A DNA stretch of 64,000 nt. Source: Ganoderma boninense. Its lineage: Eukaryota; Basidiomycota; Agaricomycetes; Polyporales; Polyporaceae. The stretch covers positions 3,632,313 through 3,696,312 of the forward strand of contig CM035313.1 of NCBI GenBank assembly GCA_002900995.3, read 5' to 3'. The translations under genes and the position numbers were made by a program. The notes beneath the pieces are model-generated. The model had not been told where the DNA came from, searched no databases, and was given only the letters and a program-made list of their open reading frames with translations. Positions within the stretch are counted from its first letter, which is position 1, and each line of letters opens with the position of its first letter. Positions 5,615 through 64,000 of the stretch are shown piece after piece.

Positions 5615-6132
5615 GAGCTACGTCAACGGGACGGACGAGACGACAGTAGACGCCACTATTGAACGCTTCGCTTCTATGCAGCTAGCTTGTAGAAACCTTT
5701 CTTTGGCCACAAGGTACGTTCGTGCACTCTTCATGCGGCGTTAGTCCTAACGACCACTGGCTCGTTTAGTTATTTTGTCTTGTCGTACAGAGCAATTGAC
5801 CGTGGCTTGTTTCGATGAGATCACTCTGTTGAATGCTTCCGGGGTCGGTGTCTCGGGCAGCACCCACTCGCGTCCCATGGCGCAATGCGCCACCAGCATT
5901 TGAGTGTAGCTTGGCGCGCCGGGGCCCGACACTCACTCGATTGCACCTTGGCTGTGGGTCCCGCATTGTGGGTGCGTCAACGAGGTCCGGTTGCGACATA
6001 TAAATCCTACGCAAGGTCGACCGTAGCCCCTCCGCCCCTCCACAGTCTCACCAGCCAGTCCTGCTCCCCTTCGTCGTCACTCACATCTCTCGTCAAAGCA
6101 CCCCCCCCCTCAATCTCTGCGTTAAACTCGAG
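5615..6132. other. Intergenic and promoter of the O-methyltransferase
   Basis: Contains the 3' flank of the HAD-like gene and a CT-rich stretch before the methyltransferase ATG. No other gene seen. Confidence 0.5.
5998..6005 (+). promoter_or_regulatory. TATA-box-like ATATAAAT upstream of the O-methyltransferase
   Basis: ATATAAAT lies about 130 bp before the ATG at 6133 and is followed by pyrimidine-rich sequence, a common fungal core-promoter arrangement. Motif match only. Confidence 0.4.
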
Positions 6133-8162
6133 ATGGCTGCCAACGATCACCAGGAGACCCCTCTTCTCTCCCTCCTGTCTGTGCTGACCACGTCCATCCA
6201 CACCATCGAGGACGAGCTCAAGACCGCCGGGCTGCCCCCGTTCACGCTGGACCCGCACTGGCACCCGCTCGACTCGCTCGACGGCGTCCCGCCTGCGCGG
6301 CTGCACGAAGCGCGGCGGGTCGCGATGGCCGCCGCGAACATGATCAAGGCCCTCGTGCAGGACGTCGGGACCGCGATGATGGTGGGCACACACAGTTTCA
6401 GTTTCATAAGTTAGCAGCCATCGGAAGTACGTAGCCACACTGATGGGGCACGCGCATGCGCGCAGGACATGTCCGTCAAGACGCTCGATCAGACGGCGTA
6501 CATGCTGACGGCGGACATCGACCTGCTGGACGTCTTCCGGACCGCGGACGAGAAGGCCGGCGGCCTGCACGTCGACGAGATGGTCGCGCGGCTCCCGAAG
6601 GGCAAGAAGGTCGACCCGCAGAAGCTCGGCCGCTCCCTGCGCCTGCTGAGCACCGAGCACTGGTACGTACGTCCCCGTCCTCGCACTCGTCTCTCACTCA
6701 CTGTCACTGCGACCGTGACCCCCCGCGCAGGTGGGTGGAGAAGTCCGCGGACGTGTTCGCGCCGCTGCGCTGGGCGCTGCTCAACACCCCGGGCACGCCG
6801 TCGCACGCGTGGGCGGACTCGTCGTCGAACGCAGCGCTCATCGGCAGCCAGGCGTTCGTCGCGCAGATGACGGACCCCGCCCAGCTCGCGCGCGACACGA
6901 TCGACGCCGCGCCGATCGTCCGCGGGCTCCACGCGCTCGGCAGCACGCACGTCAGGGACTTCTGGGGGTGGCTCGCGCAGGACCCCGACCGCCTCGGCGG
7001 GTTCGCGCGCAGCATGGAGGGGCTCGGTCGGTGTCGCACTTCTCTTCCTCTTCCCCTCTTCCACCTTCGACCTTCAAGCTGATTGAGTGCGGGCTCGGAT
7101 TCGGGCTGTGTGTGCGCAGGCTACATCAACCTCCCGTCGCTCAAGGCGGACTACCCGTGGGCGGCGCTCCCGCCCGAGACGACGTTCGTCGACGTCGGGG
7201 CGGGCCAGGGCACGGTGTCGCTGCACATCCTGCGGATGCTGTACGACGCGAACCCGACGCTCCGCGTCGTCCTCCAGGACCGCCCGCAGCACCTCCAGGA
7301 GGGCGAGAAGTACTGGGCGCAGCACCTGCCGCGCGCGATCCGCGAGGAGCGCGTCGAGTTCGAGCCGCACGACTTCTTCCAGAACAACCCGCGCACGGGG
7401 CCGAACACGGTGTACTGGTTCAGGTTCATCATGCACGACTGGACGGATAGGTGCGTGTGGGGTTTGAGTTGAGAGAGATGGGGAGAGGCTGTGCTCCTGG
7501 TTTGCTCCGAGTCAGGCTGACGGGAAATTTGGACGGGCAGCTATTGCATCAAGATTTTGCGGGCGGTGCGCGACGTGTGTCACGCCACGTCTCGGAGTAA
7601 GGGCGTTGGTGGTCTCCAGCCCTGTCGGTCTGATAACTATGCTCGTAGTTCTCATCTGCGACTGTGTCGTTCCCGAGGCGCCGCCAGCTGGGTCGGCGAC
7701 AAACGGAGTCAAGCTTTCGTTCGAGGATACTCTGAAATCCATTGATAACGACGCGGTGAGAGTTGCGTTCTTGGTGCTTAGACTCGCTGTGACATTTTAT
7801 CTACCTCAGCCCTACGCACCGATCGAAGCGCCGTACCCCCTTCCCCAGAACTTCGGCTTTGCTACAAAGGCTACGTACCGTACCGATATGGTGAGCTCGC
7901 ACCGCGCTGGTGTTCGTGCTCCCCACTCTGCACACGTATGCTTACGCCGTGTGAATTCCTCTAGCTCATGTACAACTCCTTGAATGCCCTTGAGCGGACG
8001 ACAAGGAATTTCGAAAAGATCGTCACTGGGTCGGGCTTCGTGATTTCCCGCATATACACGACCCGTGGGGCGTCCAGCAGTGCGTTGTCGTTTTGATAAC
8101 TGTCAATCTCCTTCGGTTCCACTAAACAGACCATCGCAGTCATCGAGGCGGTTCCCAACTAA
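6133..8162 (+). CDS. SAM-dependent O-methyltransferase, plant-type class II (COMT-like)
   Basis: join(6133..6381, 6466..6662, 6731..7026, 7120..7450, 7541..7596, 7649..7755, 7810..7890, 7965..8079, 8140..8162) = 484 aa, all phases closed. The N-terminal half is the helical dimerisation domain (residues 1-245). The C-terminal half is a Rossmann methyltransferase fold with the AdoMet glycine motif FVDVGAGQGTVSLHI (about 265-279), DRP after beta-strand 2, VEFEPHDFF, and the general-base motif FIMHDWTD (about 351-358). Fungal relatives methylate hydroxyls of phenolic or polyketide metabolites. The substrate here cannot be read from sequence. The acceptor CGCAG|TC near 8139 gives the family-typical ending SIIEAVPN. 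The nearest metabolism genes are the two FAD monooxygenases 13 kb away, so a cluster is not supported. Confidence 0.9.
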
Positions 8163-52836: not shown

Positions 52837-53233
52837 GGGGGGCACAGGTAGACCGTAGATGCGAGTAGACTAGTAGTGCCAGTAGAGCAGCGGTGTGGGG
52901 AGCCTTCATTGCTCCAGCGCCCCCGACCATGCACCATTCACATGATAATCGGCTTCACTGCGGATTTCGAGGGTAGGGAGCAGTGAGCGAGGCCTCTGCC
53001 CCGCGACAGCGCCTTCTCCCGACGCGTGCTCATGCCGCGGCGGCTCCCACAGTTAGTGTACCGGGCAGAATACTTTTGGCCCTTGGCAGATGGCAGAATG
53101 GCAAAACGGCAATTGCCAGGGCCGGCAAATACTGGCAAATTGGCAGCTGGTTCCCAATGCTCTCTGGCTGCAGGAAGTGCTGTAAATCGTGTCTTTGAGA
53201 GATGAGGAGCACCCCAAGTGCTTAAAGTTGCTT
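52837..53233. other. 3' flank, start of the repeat-rich island
   Basis: 53085-53150 has many TGGCA/TTGGCAGA-like short repeats. No gene seen. Confidence 0.45.
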
Positions 53234-53688
53234 ATTTATAGGGTGTAAAGTAGGGGGGTATGCAGGTTAGAGTAGGGTTAGAGCGACCATTTGGGCGAAA
53301 ATGTGCGAAGTGACGGTCGAACCGTCACTTCACCAAGGATCAGGCGCCCAAAATGATAAGCGTGGGAGCCAAAGATTGCGAAGTCACGGACAGACCGCGA
53401 CTTCGCATCACCTCAGGACGTGCCATGCCAACAATGTATCATCAATGTTAGGAAGCAGTATGTGTACCATGACATCGGCGGTGAATATATAAGTACAATG
53501 GCACCATAAGTTCGGCTAGCGGGAATCAAAGGACTCTGTGACAAATCAAACCAAAGTCACAATATGAAGCGGAATGAAACGACAAGATGATGAGAGAGTG
53601 TTTTGAGGGAGGGAGCAAGTATAGGAATGAAAAATCTGTGTGGAGAACAGGGTGTTTTAAAAGGAAAAGAAGGGGATAAAGAGGGTTA
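53234..53688 (+). repeat. Interspersed hairpin repeat, copy A
   Basis: Opens with TATAGGGTGTAAAGTAGGGG, then telomere-like TTAGAGTAGGGTTAGAG. Hairpin 1: GAAGTGACGGT (53307-53317) with ACCGTCACTTC (53321-53331), perfect 11 bp. Hairpin 2: TGCGAAGTCACGG (53377-53389) with CCGCGACTTCGCA (53395-53407), one mismatch. Nearly identical to 63282-63735 at a constant offset of 10,048 bp; similarity stops near 53688. Confidence 0.85.
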
Positions 53689-53764
53689 CATCAGGAAAAA
53701 AAAGCTTGCCTACATAAGCCTCTGTAGCCTACAGAGTTTTGTAGGCCGCGTAGACAAGTCTCGA

Positions 53765-54185
53765 TTAATAGGGTGTAAAGTAGGGGGGGATTTAGGTTAA
53801 GGCAGGGTTCGAAAGAGCGTAAACACAAAATGTGCGTGAATGCAGGGCACGCATTGATGAGAAAACAACCAAGCCATTGTCACTGTCACAGCACATGGAC
53901 AATACGCACATGTTCGGATATACAGCAATCACAAAAATGTCACATCTGCGGTTTAGCAAATGGACGGCTAACACGCACCACGCAATCGACGAAGTCATTG
54001 CCATTTAGCAGTGCGCCTGCCAACCAGCAAGTGCACATCAAACGAACACGGCACACGTTCACAACATGTCGGGAAACAGGTAAAGTGTAAATAGCAACAC
54101 ACGCCAGTCTACAATTACGTTCATACAGGAACGGTTACATGGGATTTACGATTGAATGGGAGGTTACATATTCAACGGGGTAAAG
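53765..54185 (+). repeat. Interspersed hairpin repeat, copy B (diverged)
   Basis: Begins TTAATAGGGTGTAAAGTAGG, shared with copies A, C, D and E. The internal hairpin is weak (ATGTGCGTG near 53830 with CACGCATT near 53848). The 3' boundary is not resolved; the end given is the next feature. Confidence 0.5.
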
Positions 54186-54899
54186 CTACTGCAGGCAACA
54201 TCCTGTACACAATGACGGAGAGCTTGATGTCAGGCTTGGGACGTTTTGACGTCTACTTGAAGTGATGTTCATAAAACTGTATTGAGTATAAGGAACGAAA
54301 GTCTGAGGGAAGAAAACAACGTACGAGTCAAGTTGCAGTTCCTCCGCATGCTGAGATCCTTGACGTGGGGACAGAGGCGCCCTGGAATACGACGGTGCTG
54401 GTCGCACAATCAGTGGCACTTGCATCAATTGCGAGGGAGGGGGAGGGACGATAACCCTATGGATGTGGACGACACGGGTTGGAGAGGAAGCAGGAATGGT
54501 TATGTTGATTGGCTCTGGGAGATGCGGAGGCAGGGGGAGAGGATGTGAAGGGACAGCAGCGCGGGGAGGAAGCTAGCGCATGGAAGGTAGGTTTCAAATT
54601 GGTACCGACAATACTTGAAGCAATGTACGTACATTATGAACAGCCAGCGTTCGAACTGCGCGATTGACATGGAGTTCCGGAGGAGGGGGCAGTTTCCAAG
54701 CAACATTTTGAGCAGCGCGTGATGACGCTGGTTGCTGGCTGTCCCGGGAGATGCAAGAACACGGACGAAGAGTGTCAGAGGACGATAAAGGTATTTCCGA
54801 AGGCATTTTAGCCAGAAGGGTGGAGGGTGGAGCTTGGTGCGACGTAGGAGTCGGGAGACTAGCAGGATCTGAGGGGTCGTGGTCTGGAAGGGAAGACAT
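54186..54899 (-). CDS. Small proline-rich protein, paralogue 1, function unknown
   Basis: complement(join(54186..54572, 54633..54899)) = 217 aa, one 60-nt intron in phase 0. Shares with the gene at 59278-59831, in the same order: a Ser/Asp plus PCSCI motif, WKLPPPP near the end of exon 1, LPPR...PLPLPP at the start of exon 2, and SPTRVVHIHRVIVPPPPS followed by MQVPLIV. Intron position and phase are also the same. No signal peptide, TM helix or known domain. The tail after PLIV is longer here and not conserved. Two copies with the same splice structure and conserved peptide blocks argue that it is a real gene. Lies between repeat copies B and C. Confidence 0.6.
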
Positions 54900-55728
54900 A
54901 GTGGCGGAGAGCGGTCAGTGTACAGCGGGGCATGGCTGGCGGCGCAAGTTCACTGACATATAACGAGGCATTCCGCCGGTTAAACTGCATCAACGGGAAA
55001 TAAATAATCCCGCAAACGTGAGAGACGTGCCCTTCCGTGAAGGTGTTCCGACGTACGTGGGAGGAACACTATTCTTGGCAGAAAATCACTTCAAGGAGAA
55101 GCGTTCGCTTGCTACGGTCACAGTTGCCGTTCTTGGAACCTATGAATTGAATGAAAATCCTTTGTCATGAACGTCGTCAGTGACACATGGGACGGAATGA
55201 CAGGTAACTGGGAAAAGCGTAGGTTGGCCTGAGCCTTGACAGTGGGCGTGGCATAGTTACCTACCCAACGTGGTCAGTCTAGGGCAAGTTCAGAGGAAGC
55301 CCTGCTGTGGGAGGCTACCGCACCGTTGGAGGGCTTTCTACAACGTGCGAACTAACAGCACAAACATAGCACGACCTGGCCCACGGGAGGGTGTGCGGCA
55401 TGTTTGGCTACCTACTGATAGCCGGCGGCCTAGACAGCGCCTCGTACAGAACCTCGCCGTCCGTGGGTGTCTCTGGACGTGCAACAGGTCGCCCACTGTC
55501 GAGTCTGCCATAGCGTTGAACCAGTCTCATCTGCGACTATATTCACAGTGTGTTATTTGGGAATACTTAGACGTGATGTGTGCCTAAAGTTGTATGGGCT
55601 ACTGAGTAAATCGTAGTCCCATGTTGCACCTGGAAGTTAATGCGTGCTGGAGCGCTAAATAGTACAATGTTGCGGAGGTCGCCAAACACTCGCCCAGGCC
55701 AACTCAAGCTTGGGTATGAACAGTGTAT
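54900..55728. other. No gene recognised
   Basis: 829 bp. One open frame (55270-55587) has no paralogue or motif I recognise. Confidence 0.4.
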
Positions 55729-56100
55729 ATTAATAGGGTGTAAAGTAGGGGGGGATTAGGGTTAGAGTGAGGTTCGGGTGAGATTTTTGGAGATTGTTGC
55801 GACATAGCGGGCGTACCGCTATGTCGCAAAAAGAGAGAAGGGTCGGGGATTATCAGGAACAGGAACGTTGCGACATAGCGGAGTGACTGCTATGTCACAT
55901 AGATGGGAGCAAGACTGCGTACCTGGCAAACTGGAATAATGGTGTGATAGCAAAAATGGCATTGGGCGTAGATGGTGACTGTCTAGAAAGGAAACTTAGT
56001 GAAGATGATAAGACAAAAGTGATGTGAATGCAGGTGGGATATGTAGTGAAGACAAGCATAAAGGAGTGTCGAACTGGGTGATGTCGACAGCTTTTTAAAT
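55729..56100 (+). repeat. Interspersed hairpin repeat, copy C
   Basis: Begins TTAATAGGGTGTAAAGTAGG and continues GGATTAGGGTTAGAG. Hairpin 1: TTGCGACATAGCGG (55797-55810) with CCGCTATGTCGCAA (55816-55829), perfect 14 bp, 5-nt loop. Hairpin 2: TTGCGACATAGCGG (55868-55881) with CTGCTATGTCACA (55887-55899). The 3' end is not resolved. Confidence 0.7.
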
Positions 56101-56500
56101 GAACTCATGAATTGTGTGTGAAAGCATAATTGAGACGGACATATGTAGCAAAGGGTCGAGATATCGAGAGAAGAAATGGAGCTATGTAAGACTTACTATG
56201 AATGAATTGAAATCTGAATGAGGGGATTAGGTAGGAGGAAGGAGTAGTGGCTAAAGAAGGATGGAATGAACGAAGCGGGTGGAGGGTACAAAGAAGGAAG
56301 GGTTATGGGAAGGTACAAAGGGGATGGACCCTAGGGTCGAGATAAACCCTACCCTAGGGTTTAAATCACTTAATATAGCTATTCTCGCGTCCTGACATAT
56401 GGTAATAACACAGTAACATTTTCAATGCACATTGCAGGTGGAACGGAACAACTCCAAGGACCGACGTAGCTAAGTGCAAGACATGCACACAGAGCACCGC
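56101..56500. other. AT-rich, purine-rich stretch without a gene
   Basis: Downstream of copy C. Contains ACCCTAGGGT palindromic pieces near 56329-56361. Nothing coding seen. Confidence 0.4.
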
Positions 56501-56508
56501 AGTAGGTG

Positions 56509-56728
56509 GCACTCCTGGAAGGCTGCACGCAGTGGGGCTGCACTACCGCAGGCAGTGCGGCACCCATGGTGTGCGGGCTATGCGGTCGGGCTTCCAGGAG
56601 CACCACTCTGAGTTCGAGTGTGCGTGCGCATGGCGGGTGTGTGCGGTCGGGCTTCCAGGAGTACTATCCTGAGTTCGGGTGTGCCTTCGCATCGCGGCTC
56701 TGTACTGACGGGCTTCTAGGAGGGCTAC
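56509..56728 (+). repeat. 61-bp minisatellite with an inverted partial unit
   Basis: About 2.4 direct units starting GCGGTCGGGCTTCCAGGAG at 56582 and 56643, with a partial third at 56706. The same core occurs inverted at about 56505-56525 (GGCACTCCTGGAAGG). Confidence 0.65.
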
Positions 56729-57213
56729 ATAGCAGAAGAGGTTCCAAGAAATAATTACATTTTTATGGCACATCATCTACACAACTACAACGTACAAACG
56801 AGCGATCACTGCGCGCAGGAGATATAGTACACGTCAAGTATTGTGAGGGACATCTCAATTACAATCGAAGCAGTTACCGCCGCCACAGAATTCGTCTTCC
56901 TCATCTGACTGCTGCTGGGCAACATCATCAACGACAGCAACGCTGGACATATACACGCTTCAAAATACCTCAGGTCAATAAAAGAAGGTGAAAGATGGAC
57001 GACGGGACGTACGCAGGGAATGGCAACATTCTAGGGGTATAAGGTGACTTATGTAGGGGTTAGAGGGACCCTTTTCGTAGACGTCGGCCCTTTTTCTCCG
57101 CGCAAGCACATGCCGTGCATCTGCGGGACACGTTTACACACAACTTTACCCACATAAATCTCAGCAGAAGCACTGACAGTGCATTCTCTGAGATGCCTCG
57201 GGCCATCTATTTA

Positions 57214-57467
57214 TTGCGCATAAGCACCAATGGTGCTCATGCGCAAAACATCCGACAAGACTACGTATGAGTATCTGCGCATAAGCACATTTAGTGCTTG
57301 TGCGCCCTTGTACATATGCATTCGACTGTCATAATTCCGCATGGGCACATATAGTGCTTGCGCGCAAAGAATATTCGTAGGCCACTCGCATATCCGCTTC
57401 TCGTAGCTATGTGTATGTAGGAAAACTGGACATTGACGGCGTGAAAGCACTTTATGTGCATCTGCGC
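57214..57467 (+). repeat. Array of four related hairpins (GCGCATAAGCAC type)
   Basis: H1 57214-57246 (TTGCGCATAAGCACCA / TGGTGCTCATGCGCAA), H2 57276-57305, H3 57337-57365, H4 57439-57467 (GCGTGAAAGCAC / GTGCATCTGCGC). Spacing 62, 61 and 102 nt. The sequences between the hairpins are unrelated. Confidence 0.65.
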
Positions 57468-57638
57468 AACAATTCTCTGACACTTTATTCCATAAATATT
57501 TGTTATGATTCTACGTCGCAGTATTCGCATCTACTACTTCAACGCACCGCCAACAAAGAATATTATCTTCGTTGACCCGCTCACCAAGCCATCCTGACCA
57601 CAAAGCAAGCGATACTGATGCACTGCCAATATTGCTGA

Positions 57639-58475
57639 TTAATAGGGTGTAAAGTTGGGGGTATTTAGGGTTAGATTGAGGTTCTGCTGAGAATTCTTTG
57701 AAAACGTGCGACATAGCGGTTGGACGGCCATGTCGCACCAATGCGAGATTGAAAAAAAACATGGCAAGCGCAGATCAACTGAGATCTGCGACATAGCGGA
57801 GCAACTGCTATGTCGCAAATGGAGGGAGGGTACCTAATTGTACATAGTGAAGTTGAGTGGGGGCATAGCGGATACAAGGATATGTTAGGGCACCAATAAT
57901 GATAACATCAAACTAAGACGTAGGTGAGAATAAGCAAGTGAAGTCAAAGACAACAATGTCAGACTTTGATGTGACGCAAAAATGCCATGCAGGCACAGTC
58001 AATGCCAGACAGTTCGATAATGGGTGACATTCAAGACATTAGAATGATAGCTGTGCAGAAGTAGGCAAGATATGTATATAGATGTATACATGGAGAACTG
58101 AACAGGAATTTATACGTAGTAGGAGAACACGATAGAGAACATGATGTGAATGTCCGTGGACGGTGAGTAGACAATTAGCGCGGGTAGCTAAAGATAGCGA
58201 GGAGAAGAGAACGAGGCCAGTTGTTAAGGAGATGCAGAAGCCCAAAAAGGAATAGTGTTGTTGGAGATGATGGGAGTGAGGAACTGGATCCCGGAGTGCG
58301 CTGGAAGGATGTATAGGTAGAGAAAAAACACAAGAGACAGCCCAATTGAAGCGGGCGAGAAATTGAGTCTCGAATGTGTGGGGATAGGGAGAAACAGTGG
58401 TGGGATAAGGGAGGAGAAATGGAGGGGAGGAGAGAACTGGGTAGAGGAGAGGCGTGCGGTGAATTAGAAGAGGAA
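57639..58475 (+). repeat. Interspersed hairpin repeat, copy D
   Basis: Begins TTAATAGGGTGTAAAG. Hairpin 1 at 57706-57738 (GTGCGACATAGCGG with GGCCATGTCGCAC); hairpin 2 at 57786-57818 (CTGCGACATAGCGG with CTGCTATGTCGCA). The distal end AGGCGTGCGGTGAATTAG (about 58449) recurs as AGGCGTTCGGTGAATTTG at the very end of the window behind copy E, which suggests a shared 3' terminus. Confidence 0.65.
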
Positions 58476-58580
58476 GCATGAGTACGTGAAGGGAGCCGAG
58501 TTAAAAATTTCAATGAGGCAGAGGTGGCGGGTCAAAAGGGTGAGGAGTGGGAGAGGGGTACGCACCTTTGCACGCCCAGC

Positions 58581-58742
58581 ATGCCCTCCATCATGCTCTC
58601 CGAGGAGGACCAGCTTGCCTATGACTCTCTCTCTGAACTCGTTTGCACTGTCACGCAAGGTCACAAATTCAAACCCACACCCATGGCCAAGGCCGTGGAG
58701 CGCGGCATGCCGCTCGGTATCTTCTCGCTGATGACAGAGGGG
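58581..58742 (+). CDS. 54-codon exon of an unknown protein, followed by a repeat array (fragment)
   Basis: ATG-initiated peptide beginning MPSIMLSEEDQLAYDSL and ending GMPLGIFSLMTEG, followed at once by a good splice donor (GTAAAAG) in phase 0. Soluble, charged helical character, no family recognised. No continuing exon found: the following 350 bp are a 50-bp tandem array and then the opposing proline-rich gene. Either a first exon with a lost or distant remainder, or a remnant. Confidence 0.4.
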
Positions 58743-58800
58743 GTAAAAGACTGCCCGTAAGGGTTAGGGCCATAAAATCACAAGGGTTGGGGGTCTGAAG

Positions 58801-59100
58801 TGCGCGGACGAAGGGACCAAGGGTCCGCGCCATGGTGTTCTGCACGGATGAGGCAGCCATCTGTCCGCGCGGACGACGGAGAGGGTTGTCCGCGCGGACC
58901 AGGTATTGGTGTCTCCGCGCGCACGAAGGAGAGGGCTGTCCGCGCGGACCAGGTATTGGTGTCTCCGCGCGGATGAAGGAGAGGGCTGTCCGCGCGGACC
59001 AGGCATTGGTGTGTCTGCGCGGAGCAGGTATTGGCCCGTCCGCGCCTACGAAGGAGAGGGCTGTCCGCGCAGACAAGAGAAAGGGACGTCCGCGCGCGTA
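58801..59100 (+). repeat. Tandem array of 50-bp units built on TCCGCGCGGA, array 1
   Basis: Units at 58881, 58931 and 58981 start GAGGG(C/T)TGTCCGCGCGGACC and end TCTCCGCGCG; degenerate units extend to both sides. Each contains the 12-bp perfect palindrome GTCCGCGCGGAC or a near copy. Confidence 0.85.
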
Positions 59101-59277
59101 TCAATGAAGCATGTGTGAAAAGAATATCAAAATATTGAAATGGAGATACATGTAGTATTCTACTGGAGACAGCATCGGCCACATAATGACTTGTCGTATG
59201 GTGAAGGCTCGAAAGTCACTGTGTGGTCGAGAGGGAGGTCGATGAAGCTGAGAGCGGAGTTAGTGTGATGCAGATAA

Positions 59278-59831
59278 TCATACGAAGAGAACGCACGAGA
59301 GGGCGGACTGGGGCGGGTACGTCTGCCTCGACGACGTACGAGGACGAGAGGGCGGGGGTGGTATGATGAGGGGCACCCTCATTATGGGAGATGGAGGAGG
59401 AGGGACGATGACCCTGTCGACGTGGATGATGCGTGTAGGAGAGGGAGAGCCGCTGGTCGAGTCATCGGGGAGAGCATGTTGAGGAGGGATAGGGAGAGGC
59501 TGCGAAGGGATGGGTGGGCGAGGAGGAAGCTGACAAGTGGACTTGAGGGTGGAGGAAGTGTGAGCATGGAAATGAGCTGATGACTTACTGTTTCCGCTGC
59601 GAAGGCGCGGGTGTGAAGGCACGCCCGAGTACCGACCAGGGAGGGAGGTGGAGGTAGTTTCCAGGTGACAGTTGGTTGAGAGGGCAGGGGAGAGAGATGG
59701 TCCGTGCTGGTGAAGATGCAGGAGCAGGGGCTGAGGACGTCTGAGGAGGGAGACGGGGTTGCTGTGTCGCCAGGCTGGGTGGGCTGGGCCTGTACCACCG
59801 CGGAGATGTTGGACACAGAGAGGGCAGACAT
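59278..59831 (-). CDS. Small proline-rich protein, paralogue 2, function unknown
   Basis: complement(join(59278..59529, 59589..59831)) = 164 aa, one 59-nt intron in phase 0. Blocks shared with paralogue 1: SSDVLSPCSCI, TWKLPPPP, LPPRPPIPSQPLPIPP, SPTRIIHVDRVIVPPPPS and MRVPLII. An upstream in-frame ATG at 59867 would add 12 residues. Lies between array 1 and the ParB-like gene and is transcribed away from the latter. Confidence 0.62.
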
Positions 59832-60821
59832 GTGAGCTGTGAGGGAGGGTATGCGGGGAGGAGGCAAGGGTTGACGATGTTAGTGTTGACGTGGAGACAG
59901 AACGAGAGTGTCCACTAGTCGGAAATCGGGTAGCGAAAGGATGTTTGTCCGGGCGTGGATCACAGAGAAGCAGTTAGTTACGTAGTTAATGAATGGCATG
60001 AGAAGCAAGGTATAAGCGATGAGAACGCAAATGTCATACTCAGCCTGGGCTCGGAGAAACAGTGTTTGCGAGGAGCAGGTTTGATTTTGAGAGGAGTGCA
60101 GGGCGATATGTGTGGAATAGTAGGACGAGCGCACCCAGTGCTAAGAGTGATGTCGAAAGATTGCGCAGATGAACGAGGTGCTGCTCCGCGCACAGTATAT
60201 GTGAGAGATAAACTATATGAGTTGTGATTGGCACAGTATGGATCAGGAGAGCTGCTATACATGCAAGTGTTACAGGGCATGGTGCGCGGACGGGCAGAAT
60301 GCGTGTGCGCGGAGGAAGACAGACACGAGTGAGTAGGGAAGGCAAGGTACCGAGGGAAGGGGAGGGACGATGTCATGGAGAAGATGTACAGCCACAGGGC
60401 AGGGAGAAGCAGAGAAGCGCGAGATGTAGCACAGCCACGAAGGGAGATCAGGTACCTGAAAGAAGCGCGGCGTAATTGATGGAGTGGCTGTGCAAGAAGA
60501 GGGGCGCAGATGCCATGCGAGAGAAAGTGCCTGATATGGGCGAGTCTCCCCGAGAATGCAAACACTGCCGAAACAAGACGAGAGACACCGAAGTAAAGGA
60601 CTGCCATGAGGCTGGGCAAAGGGCAAATTACAGGGAGGGGAGGGGGCTCGAGAGCGACGCTCTGATTCCCCCTTTCCTCCTCCCCTCACATCTCTTTGCT
60701 GCGATCCTCTTGATCGAGCGCGCAAACTCTGTATAAACGTCACCACCAGCGAACTAGCTTCGAGTGGTGAGTCTGATGCCGCTGGATAGGGAGACAAGTG
60801 CTTACTGGGGCGTGCGTAGCC
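59832..60821. other. Divergent promoter region of proline-rich gene 2 and the ParB-like gene
   Basis: 990 bp with no recognisable gene. Open frames on the minus strand here are compositional. Confidence 0.45.
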
Positions 60822-62876
60822 ATGGCTGGACGCAAGAAGTCGAAGGTGAGCGTAGCGTCGGGCGTACGAGCTATGTCGAGGCGAGACTGATGGCGGAGGG
60901 TTTGGATAAAGGGCAAGGACAAGGACAAGGTACGTCATGCGTTGCTTGAGCGGTGGTTACGCGAGGAAGGCGAGCGGATGCAGTGTGGCTGATTGCCGTT
61001 GGGTTGTGTAGGTTGCCGGTGTGCGAATCCCGAAGCCGGAGCCGGAGCAGATGGAGGAGAACCCCGAGGAGAGGAACACGAGGGAGAATCAGCAGGAAGA
61101 GGAGAAGGCGTTCTTCGGACGGGGCGTCCTGGACTTGTTGTCACCGCTGGCCGGCGTGACGTACAAACTCGGGACGTACAACCCGCGCGCGCTTCAGCTG
61201 CCGTCTGTGATGAGGCTGGTGCGGTCGTTCGAGGGTGTGGGGATGAACACGCAGGGGAATCCTATTTTCATCCACGTTGATGCGAAACACGTTGAGAAAG
61301 GTTCGTACATTGAGAAGAACGGCGACCTGACGGAGTGGGAGGGGATGGAGGCGATCAAGTTCAAGAAGCGAGCGGATGGGAAGCCGCTGGTTGTGCAGGT
61401 CATGTCCGGGGCGCATCGGATCGAGGCGATGAAGATCACGAAGGAGCGGCTGGAGAAGCTTCGCAACAAGAAGCAGGCGTCGATGGAGACGGCGGACAGG
61501 AAGCTTGGGGACGCCGGGTCTGAGAAGCAGCGCGAGTCGATGGACAAGTTGAAGGAGTACGTGAAGTCGCTGACGATCAAGCTGAACCGGATCGGGCGTT
61601 GGTGCGTGCTGATCTACGATGGAAGTGAGTGTTTACGCGGACGCACAACGGCGCGTTGGGCATGCGCTGACGGTGTTTGGGTATGTGACGCAGACGTCGG
61701 CAGCGCGAAGCTGTGGAACTACTTGTCTCAGAACGAGCATCTGCCCGTGTTGCGCGCGACGCCTGAGGAGCGTGTGTGGAACTACAAGGCGCAGATCGAG
61801 GCGGTCGTGGCGAGCTGGGACGACGACCACAAGGAGACGAAGGAGGCGCTTCCGAAGCCGGGCTCGGACCAGTGGCAGGCGCAGGTGGTGCGCAAGGTGA
61901 TGACGACGCAGCAGCAGCAGGCGTTCGCGCCGTCGTACCTCGTCCTGCAGCAGCACGGGTGGGAGATGATCCAGGAGATGGGGTACTTCCCTGCGCTGAA
62001 GAGCGGACGGCACGTCACCGTGAAGCTGCTCGACACGACGTTGAAGACACGCTCGCGCTCGAACAACCAGCCCAACGCGCTTGGTGGGGTGAGTGTGCGG
62101 GTCTTGGCTATGTAGTGTTGCGCCGCGCAGAGTGCAGGCTGCTGATGTGCTTGTGCTTGCAGTTGTGGAGTGCGATCGTGCGCGACAGGATCTGGCGGAT
62201 GCGCTTTATCGCGAGCTCGGCGCCGATGCCTGACCTCAGCGCTGAACCGGACGAGCTCACACAGGATGCGCAGATGATGCTCAACTACCTGACGGTGGTA
62301 CGGGACGACCCGCAACACCCGCTGCAGGTGCCGCAGTCACGAATCGACAAGCTGCACGGTGCCGACACTGTGTTCGACAAGCTCAGCCGGCGTCAGCAGG
62401 AGAAGCTGGTCGACGACTACTCGCGCCAGGTAGCGAAGGACTACGCTGCGTTCGAGGATCGGACGATGACCGTGGACCTTGCCGCGGTTGTCTTTGACGA
62501 CTCGGTGATGACGCAGATCGACCAGAAGTACGTGCAGCTCATCCAGCGGAAGAAGCTGTTGCTCTACATGGGGTTCAGTGACCATGCGGGGTGGCAGCAA
62601 GCGCTGCAGCAGTACAAGGCCGCGGTCGAGGAGATTTTGAAGAAGCACTGGAAAGGTCTTTCGCAGGAGCTGGGCGAGGGCGACGACGGCGACGCGGGTG
62701 AGGTCGACGAAGAGCGTGCGCAGATGTTCAGGGCGGTGTATTTCGCGGAGCAGCGTTACGAGTGGCAGAAGAAGCTCGTGGAGGCGGGCGACGGGTTCGA
62801 CGTGCCGTGGCCGACGAAGTCGTTTTTGGAAGACCTTCGGGACGTGCTCATGCGGTACGAACCCGCGATCCAGATG
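60822..62876 (+). CDS. ParB-like nuclease-fold protein, unknown function, 3' end unresolved
   Basis: Exons 60822..60845, probably a small 18-nt exon ending at the donor near 60930, then 61012..61624, 61694..62088, 62163..62876 with closing phases (about 590 residues visible). N-terminus basic (MAGRKKSK). The ParB/sulfiredoxin-like core reads VTYKLGTYNPRALQLPSV, RLVRSFEGVGMNTQGNPIFI and LVVQVMSGAHRIEAMKI, which follow the ParB order NPR ... GxxxPI ... GxHRxxA. The remainder is helical and charged, with NEHLPVLRATPEERVWN, AFAPSYLVLQQHGWEM and DFAAFED-like acidic blocks. Agaricomycete genomes carry similar uncharacterised proteins; no role is established. After the donor GTGAGT (62877) no further exon is found before the tandem array, so the 3' end is lost, beyond the window, or reached by intron read-through (stop at 63098). 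Confidence 0.65.
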
Positions 62877-62929
62877 GTGAGTGTCTTGTCAGTTATCGAC
62901 TGTTCCACATTTACCGCGAACAGACCATG

Positions 62930-63245
62930 TGCTCCTCTGCGCGGACAGATCACCGGCTCGTCCGCGCTGACGATGCATCTACTCGTCAGCGCGGACGATG
63001 CACCGGCTCGTCAGCGCGGACGGGGCACCGGGTCGTCTGCGCGGACAGACCATCGGCTCGTCTGCGCGGACGGGGCATACACTCCTCTGCGCGGATAGAC
63101 CACTGGCTCGTCAGCGCGGACGGCGCCACGGGTCGTCAGCGCAGACAGACCACCGGCTCGTCCGCGCGGACGGGGCATACACTCCTCTGCGCGGACAGAT
63201 CACCGGCTCGTCCGCGCGGACGGGGCATGCACTCATCTGCGCGTC
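62930..63245 (+). repeat. Tandem array of GCGCGGAC units, array 2
   Basis: Roughly 25-bp half-units alternating AGATCACCGGCTCGTC and GGGGCATACACTCCTCT between copies of (T/C)(C/T)GCGCGGAC; about a dozen cores. Shares the CGCGCGGAC core with array 1 but the spacers differ. Confidence 0.85.
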
Positions 63246-63281
63246 CAGGTCATTTGTATCGTGCCCACGATAACCGCGCTA

Positions 63282-64000
63282 ATTTATAGGGTGTAAAGTA
63301 GGGGGGTATGCGGGTTAGAGTAGGGTTAGAGCGACCATTTGGGCGAAAATGTGCGAAGTGACGGTCGAACCGTCACTTCGCCAAGGATCAGGCGCCCAAA
63401 ATGATAAGCGTGGGAGCCAAAGATTGCGAAGTCACGGACAGACCGCGACTTCGCATCACCTCAGGACGTGCTATGCCAACAATGTATCATCAATGTTAGG
63501 AAGCAGTACGTGTACCATGACATCGGCGGTGAATATATAAGTACAATGGCACCATAAGTTCAACTAGCGGGAATCAAAGGACTCTGCGACAAATGAAACC
63601 AAAGTCACAATATGAAGCAGAATGAAACGACAAGATGATGAGAGAGTGTTTTGAGGGAGGGAGCAAGTATAGGAATGAAAAATCTGTGTGGAGAACAGGG
63701 TGTTTTAAAAGGAAAAGAAGGGGATAAAAAGGGTTAGATCTGTAGGTGACAGGTATATGGAAGTTTGTTAGTGTGTGAATAGCGCGAGAGGAAAAACCTA
63801 CCGTCGACGAATGCGACAATATTGAAGTGAGAATGTGCACAAGTGAGAGAGAGTCAGGGAAATATATTGAAAAGCACTAGGGTGCATGACAAAGACAGAA
63901 GGGGCAAGAGGATAAGCAAGGGTAAGGAGGGACGCCGGGAGAGAGGGAGGATGGGACGACGGGAGAAGGCGTTCGGTGAATTTGAAGAGAAGTGTCTGAT
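63282..64000 (+). repeat. Interspersed hairpin repeat, copy E (runs to the window edge)
   Basis: Near-identical to copy A from its start to about 63735, with the same two hairpins (63355-63379 and 63425-63455). One visible change converts the hairpin-1 3' arm from CACTTCACC (A) to CACTTCGCC (E). Continues past the end of copy A and reaches the AGGCGTTCGGTGAATTTG terminus shared with copy D. Confidence 0.85.

Follow-up and report, generated by a model that had tools for sequence, protein, structure and literature searches.

Why do five repeats in the same orientation, close to the end of a Ganoderma boninense contig, carry inverted repeats whose two arms differ together from copy to copy? The window analyzed here covers the final 64 kb of contig C10 in this genome (55.6 Mb in 74 contigs), and the repeats start with ATTWATAGGG at positions 53234, 53764, 55729, 57638, and 63282 of its plus strand. 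The original prediction was that the inverted repeats are hairpins whose pairing is under selection, either in a structured RNA or as a DNA hairpin read by a protein, with sequence conversion between the arms as an alternative. We consider it fairly probable, on the comparisons presented below, that the repeats are instead heads belonging to several families of large units by which chromosome ends are built out, and that the inverted repeats are family-specific palindromic double-stranded protein sites, not functional hairpins, with the protein encoded by gene 2 of the unit as their likely reader.

Unit heads and joins at chromosome ends

The plus strand has the motif TATAGGGTGTAAAG, or a one-mismatch form of it, at 53237, 53767, 55732, 57641, and 63285, and the head 13-mer has 28 exact copies in the genome compared to none for the reversed pattern, so that the five same-orientation copies initially described are borne out. 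The head, ATTWATAGGGTGTAAAG, is the start of long multigene units of ∼16 kb or more. For families A to F, 35 heads were retained from 55 pattern matches, comprising 27 exact ones and eight with one to three mismatches, the latter picked by eye on sequence and flanks; the 20 matches left out (one with two mismatches and 19 with three) are mostly interior, and because the reversed pattern yields 60 matches at equal tolerance, three-mismatch matches are at chance level. An exact 13-mer at 2.63 Mb of contig C8 lacks the G run and was not counted as a head, and for family G the 13 heads counted are those of 21 matches that start at the G head.

Of the 35 A to F heads, 32 point to the contig end closest to them, and 34 are no more than 131 kb away from an end; the corresponding values for G are 11 and 13 of the 13 heads, and the exact 19-mer heads alone give 24 of 27 in this orientation. 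One orientation exception, on contig C4, concerns a unit that passes at its end into a long TTAGGG tract with a run of N behind it (tract and gap lie within the contig, at C4:4529369-4529526), and for this reason the scaffold piece there is probably reversed. In a comparison of 30 head loci by eye, the upstream flanks are unlike each other, with the boundary at ATTWATAGGG or a one-base variant of it, and downstream the copies are alike for varying lengths and then stop, such that distal truncation differs from copy to copy. Where examined, truncation is followed by another head or by TTAGGG repeats, with two exceptions: the join at 53693-53763 of the window, between a truncated A unit and the D head, where 71 nucleotides (nt) match nothing else among the fetched sequences, and one unit end that runs into an assembly gap. 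No distal end of any unit was identified in the sequences examined. Truncated A (in two places), H, and G run straight into TTAGGG repeats. Only the C4 passage among these four is a long tract, the other three having approximately three repeats each, and since the sequence after the short repeats is identical on contigs C9 and C7, these passages may represent a further joining family that starts with telomeric repeats rather than a healed end.

At all eight A to F joins for which an uninterrupted precursor is known, a copy of the precursor has AT at the very position at which the head ATT starts (at the A-to-F join, the first precursor copy reads AC and the window copy AT). This dinucleotide makes up 0.055 of all dinucleotides in 53001-64000, giving a naive chance of about 8e-11 for eight out of eight. 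Four G joins also share AT, one of them with an adjacent mismatch, if the head is read as A followed by TGACAGAGG, which is a post hoc reading; the C-to-G join was compared on a second precursor stretch, as the first matched poorly (19/40). The unlike flanks, the orientation toward contig ends, the variable distal stops followed by a head or by TTAGGG, and the AT at the joins make the units look as if they had been added to chromosome ends one after another. In the mechanism that we propose, a worn chromosome end with AT as its last bases would be extended by copying from a unit head, with primer and template pairing over the AT, and the new distal end would then erode, be healed by telomerase, or receive the next unit. 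The template could be either RNA, as in the terminons considered below, or DNA.

Half-site sequence and pairing of the arms

Each inverted repeat consists of two 13-base-pair (bp) half-sites, TGCGnnnTnnCnG, facing each other across 5 nt. The subtelomeric sequence fetched (∼157 kb) contains 178 half-sites, from which 52 convergent pairs arise; the spacer is 5 nt in every one of them, and no pair has a spacer of 0-4 or 6-40 nt. Genome-wide, the frame, with 14 letters fixed, is present 63 times, as opposed to 0 times for the reversed pattern, and 48 of the 50 occurrences listed are within 131 kb of a contig end. The core triplet (positions 5-7) tracks the family, being AAG in A, ACA in B and C, CAT in H, and others in D and E.

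In the window, the first, third, fourth, and fifth copies each contain a pair of inverted repeats that are 71-80 nt apart and whose first stems are as originally described, although just one of these eight matches at 13/13 positions and the rest at 11-12/13. They comprise the A palindromes at 53304-53334 (TGCGAAGTGACGG, N5, and the inverted arm) and 53377-53407, the B palindromes at 55798-55828 (the 13/13 match, TGCGACATAGCGG) and 55869-55899, the two C palindromes at 57707-57737 and 57787-57817, and those of the second A unit at 63352-63382 and 63425-63455. The copy at 53764 belongs to another family, D, and has a single weak inverted repeat (9/13) at 53947-53977. Two H palindromes, again with a 5-nt spacer, lie at 57215-57245 and 57276-57306, and near the G head an array of GCGCGGAC on both strands, with a pitch of ∼25 bp, spans 58802-59095.

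That the stems change together in both arms holds between families, with the reservation that the four copies provide only two stem sequences. Our listing of 117 palindromes was filtered for at least 9/13 complementary positions, by which some imperfect ones were missed. Across 15 palindromes picked from this listing in several families, 87.7% of cells pair (72.2% when shuffled) and 32 cells are double-changed (11.4 when shuffled, with 0 of 500 shuffles reaching 32), although the complementarity filter favors this between-family result. With no complementarity demanded at the core triplet, the two arms agree in their triplet in 46 of the 52 palindromes found by the frame (29 of 35 when each distinct sequence is counted once).

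Within families, by contrast, the shuffle tests yield no such signal. Family B (19 sites, 18 distinct, from 22 palindromes on contig C13, the other three of which belong to the next unit) shows 0 both-side changes and 94.4% pairing, versus 95.0% when shuffled, and family A (14 sites, 13 distinct, including four from a second unit copy on C5 that are related to four on C8) shows 85.8% pairing versus 88.2%, with one double-changed cell versus 4.0. A separate count over the 22 C13 sites and the eight A sites on C8, which are partly the same sites, agrees: in the eight A sites the arms differ at position 9 in six and at position 10 in seven, and these positions vary without a matching change on the other arm. 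The site sets of the within-family tests overlap, and related copies are not independent; we note, however, that the negative result stands despite the filter, because the filter works in favor of pairing. Since there is no pairing link within families, it is the half-site sequence that is held, not the pairing, a pattern expected of symmetric protein sites.

Hairpins selected as such, whether of RNA or of extruded DNA, would account for arms that differ together between families, yet compensatory changes number 0 in B and fewer than shuffled in A, and one core is common to many sites of a unit, which structure alone does not require, such that we regard this explanation as most improbable. 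A structured RNA is likewise not indicated, as there is no compensatory change among close copies and, in 53000-64000, cmscan (E ≤ 1) returned no Rfam family at gathering score, with three weak matches to microRNA models (E 0.13 to 0.54). Conversion between the arms is disfavored because the arms differ inside each family. What survives of the proposed DNA hairpin is the reading by a protein, as a double-stranded palindromic site, whereas its extrusion is disfavored by the lack of a within-family pairing signal. Palindromic protein sites can thus mimic hairpin covariation between families, and only a within-family test separates the two.

Unit order and unit genes

From the centromere side, the window holds, all on the plus strand, units or segments of families A (53234), D (53764), B (55729), H (56302), C (57638), G (58732), and A again (63282 to the contig end). 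The first A unit, at 53234-53692 (the end being uncertain by a few nt), comprises the head and first ∼459 nt before a distal cut; it is 97% identical to the A unit at 63282 (98% over 300 nt), and its upstream flank is unlike those of other copies. The D unit, at 53764-55728, is 98% identical to a D unit at the left end of contig C11 and is cut where the B head begins, at a point where the precursor reads AT. Copy comparison delimits the distally cut B unit (55729-56301, the head and first ∼573 nt), the distally cut C unit (57638-58731), and the G unit (58732-63281, head TGACAGAGGGGGTAAAAGACTGCCC), which is cut inside an intron by the next A head; the final A unit, 63282-64000, runs off the contig end. 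B was also considered as a complete short element of 574 bp, and this was rejected as other B copies extend past that point. Between B and C, the H segment (56302-57637) has its own head, TTATGGGAAGG, and palindromes TGCGCATAAGCAC, and it recurs on C7 behind a B unit truncated at another point. Among other sequences behind unit heads, a repeat family starting TATCATATGAAACCCGGCCCC stands behind truncated A units at two places (locus L028, 2373, where it is tandem, and locus L035), and the F head on C8 is followed by degenerate tandem repeats (∼5 kb; locus L069, 2650-7735) whose frames are RYSVPLPIRGRH-like.

In the B unit on C13, which extends to ∼16.2 kb, the head is followed by gene 1, which is short, gene 2, which is long, and two or more further genes, and all of these genes read away from the head. 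A second frame at 18.4 kb on C13 is 36% identical to gene 1, and for this reason a related unit probably follows, although no known head type was found between the B unit and this frame. Behind this second unit on C13 there is a retroelement-like frame with a zinc knuckle (locus L072 from ∼5600; C13 ∼118600-122100). In the A unit on C8, the gene-2 domain exon shares 48% identity with its B counterpart, and kinship of the short gene before it to B gene 1 is unsupported (E 0.69). A transposon-like insert with inverted ends CTAAGGCTGAACGTAGGTC occupies an exon of gene 2 in one A unit (locus L040, reverse strand, ∼5890-6480). Relatives of genes 2 and 4 are either no farther than 131 kb from a contig end or located on C14, which is a smaller contig.

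Gene 2 is predicted to encode a ParB/sulfiredoxin-like domain. In G, it spans 60822-62876 on the plus strand (exons 60822-60845, 60912-60929, 61012-61624, 61694-62088, and 62163-62876, with splice sites placed by eye), with the predicted domain in exon 3, and introns are present in all copies of A, B, and G gene 2 that were read. The intron just before the xRxLDPL codons holds three palindromes in A, five in B, and the GCGCGGAC array in G, where it follows exon 5, is homologous to the array-bearing introns of A and B, and was read on C6, the truncated window copy being 62939-63221. The position of the array is thus kept across three families even though its sequence differs, which, as three of five cases, is suggestive. 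More broadly, sites are spread over the unit, at the head, before gene 2, inside the gene-2 intron, and before and after gene 4. The most likely reader of the palindromes would be the unit's own gene-2 protein, and this placement would enable marking, clustering, partitioning, or silencing of the unit by that protein.

Pfam gave no family over cutoff in three spliced proteins, 10 plus-strand frames (eight of unit B and two of F), three database relatives, and 10 antisense frames of unit B; specifically, there is no Pfam reverse transcriptase domain in these 20 frames, no Rep or helicase domain was recognized in the unit B frames (nor a helicase domain in the G protein), no ParA-like domain was found among the frames scanned, and no transposase was recognized in the unit sequences scanned. 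A genome search with PF00078 gave 150 scored matches out of 305 candidates. Matches near ends (e.g., C12:3482 and C8:8151) were rejected as the unit's enzyme since they share their score (121.4 bits) with many interior copies, and they are taken, without a tree, for a common interspersed retroelement. The predicted fold of the 645-residue gene-4 frame is uninformative (predicted local distance difference test score 38). This frame has six relatives in the protein database, the one named being a hypothetical protein of Ganoderma leucocontextum (60% identical), and the B gene-2 exon has five, while the G protein has none among 7989 candidates scored.

Alternative explanations and known systems

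Several observations fit less well with units that are added to chromosome ends and marked by their own protein. The orientation exceptions on C7 and C13, and that of one G copy on C6, stay unexplained; H and a family T (start TATCATATGAAACCC) join in like manner but not on AT; and the equivalent gene-2 intron is only ∼55 nt long and empty in F, with no clear palindrome in one C5 relative.

The same joins could have arisen from a telomere-attaching, terminon-like retroelement, in which the RNA corresponds to the C-rich strand and has the head at its 3' end, the chromosome end primes the complementary DNA, the inverted repeats are 3' RNA stems, and reverse transcriptase acts in trans. The constant head start, the 2-3 nt overlap at joins, the distal truncation, the unit chains, and TTAGGG at some truncation points would all follow. 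Terminon genes are co-oriented toward the attaching end, whereas the direction of the unit genes here, which contain GT-AG introns, is away from the head, so that such an RNA could only be antisense to them. Opposite the head, the strand is rich in C and resembles telomeric sequence at its 3' end, a feature also described for terminons (PMC6431247). Against this, scans of the gene frames and of ten antisense frames of unit B revealed no recognizable reverse transcriptase, cmscan gave no hammerhead ribozyme match in 53000-64000 (window copies only), and there is no pairing constraint inside families, leaving such an element rather unlikely. We are similarly doubtful about pure DNA repair, by subtelomere-to-subtelomere break-induced replication or microhomology end joining with heads as favored break or nick points: it fits the short overlaps, the join class that itself starts with TTAGGG repeats, and the introns retained in the A, B, and G gene-2 copies read, but leaves the same-base head start on unlike flanks at 30 loci unexplained without a site-specific cut.

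Helitrons insert between A and T and have a 5' TC end. A Helitron-like rolling-circle element with a defined 5' end and the other end lost would therefore fit AT at eight of eight A to F joins, and the genome does contain Helitrons (37 Helitron_like_N matches). However, the units start with TT or TG after the A, not TC, the 37 matches are on many contigs and mostly far from any head, and the scanned unit B frames have no recognized Rep or helicase domain, making this origin very unlikely. Returning to units that build out chromosome ends, a stronger version, which we hold tentatively and with less than even confidence, is a mobile unit able to dispense with a reverse transcriptase of its own and equipped with a private ParB/parS-like marking system, in which each family's private core would co-evolve with its own gene-2 protein and the sites stand at matching places (head, gene gaps, and one gene-2 intron). 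To our knowledge, the telomere-attached mobile elements described so far are run by a reverse transcriptase. If this version is true, units of ∼16 kb or more that stack head-first without a recognized enzyme would be a second route to building chromosome ends, and family-specific site arrays beside a ParB/sulfiredoxin-like gene would be a rare eukaryotic self-marking selfish unit.

Yeast Y' elements are, like these units, subtelomeric and multicopy. The same is reported of telomere-linked RecQ helicases in Agaricus (PMC7473861); unlike both, the units have no helicase domain in what was scanned, namely the unit B frames and the G protein. The arrangement resembles ParB-parS, with clustered palindromic sites beside a gene for a predicted ParB/sulfiredoxin-like domain. 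The parS site is 16 bp long, however, compared to 13+5+13 bp here, and the units differ further in a gene that has introns, in the lack of a ParA-like domain among the frames scanned, and in that binding is presumed. Among fungal elements, MoTeR are telomeric non-long-terminal-repeat (non-LTR) retrotransposons confined to chromosome ends and with truncated copies, and Coprina are endonuclease-deficient Penelope-like elements. Literature searches over titles and abstract beginnings of open-license papers, covering part of the matches, brought up nothing recognized as these units; within this range, the closest known systems are terminons (PMC6431247) and FoTeRs (PMC12857005), both of which differ. 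FoTeRs are similarly confined to fungal chromosome ends with truncated copies, but are non-LTR retrotransposons joined at telomeric repeats (PMC12857005). The A to F joins, by contrast, coincide with AT in sequence that is not telomeric repeat, and the frames scanned contain no recognized reverse transcriptase. Terminons, which are endonuclease-deficient Penelope-like elements of rotifers, are likewise giant telomeric units that form chains, are truncated with telomeric repeats, and have a telomere-like attaching end (PMC6431247). Telomere-side truncation, unit chains, and telomeric repeats at truncation points are all found here as well; what sets the present units apart, besides the reverse transcriptase and hammerhead absent from the scanned sequence, is that their genes read away from the attaching end and that they combine palindrome arrays with a predicted ParB/sulfiredoxin-like gene.
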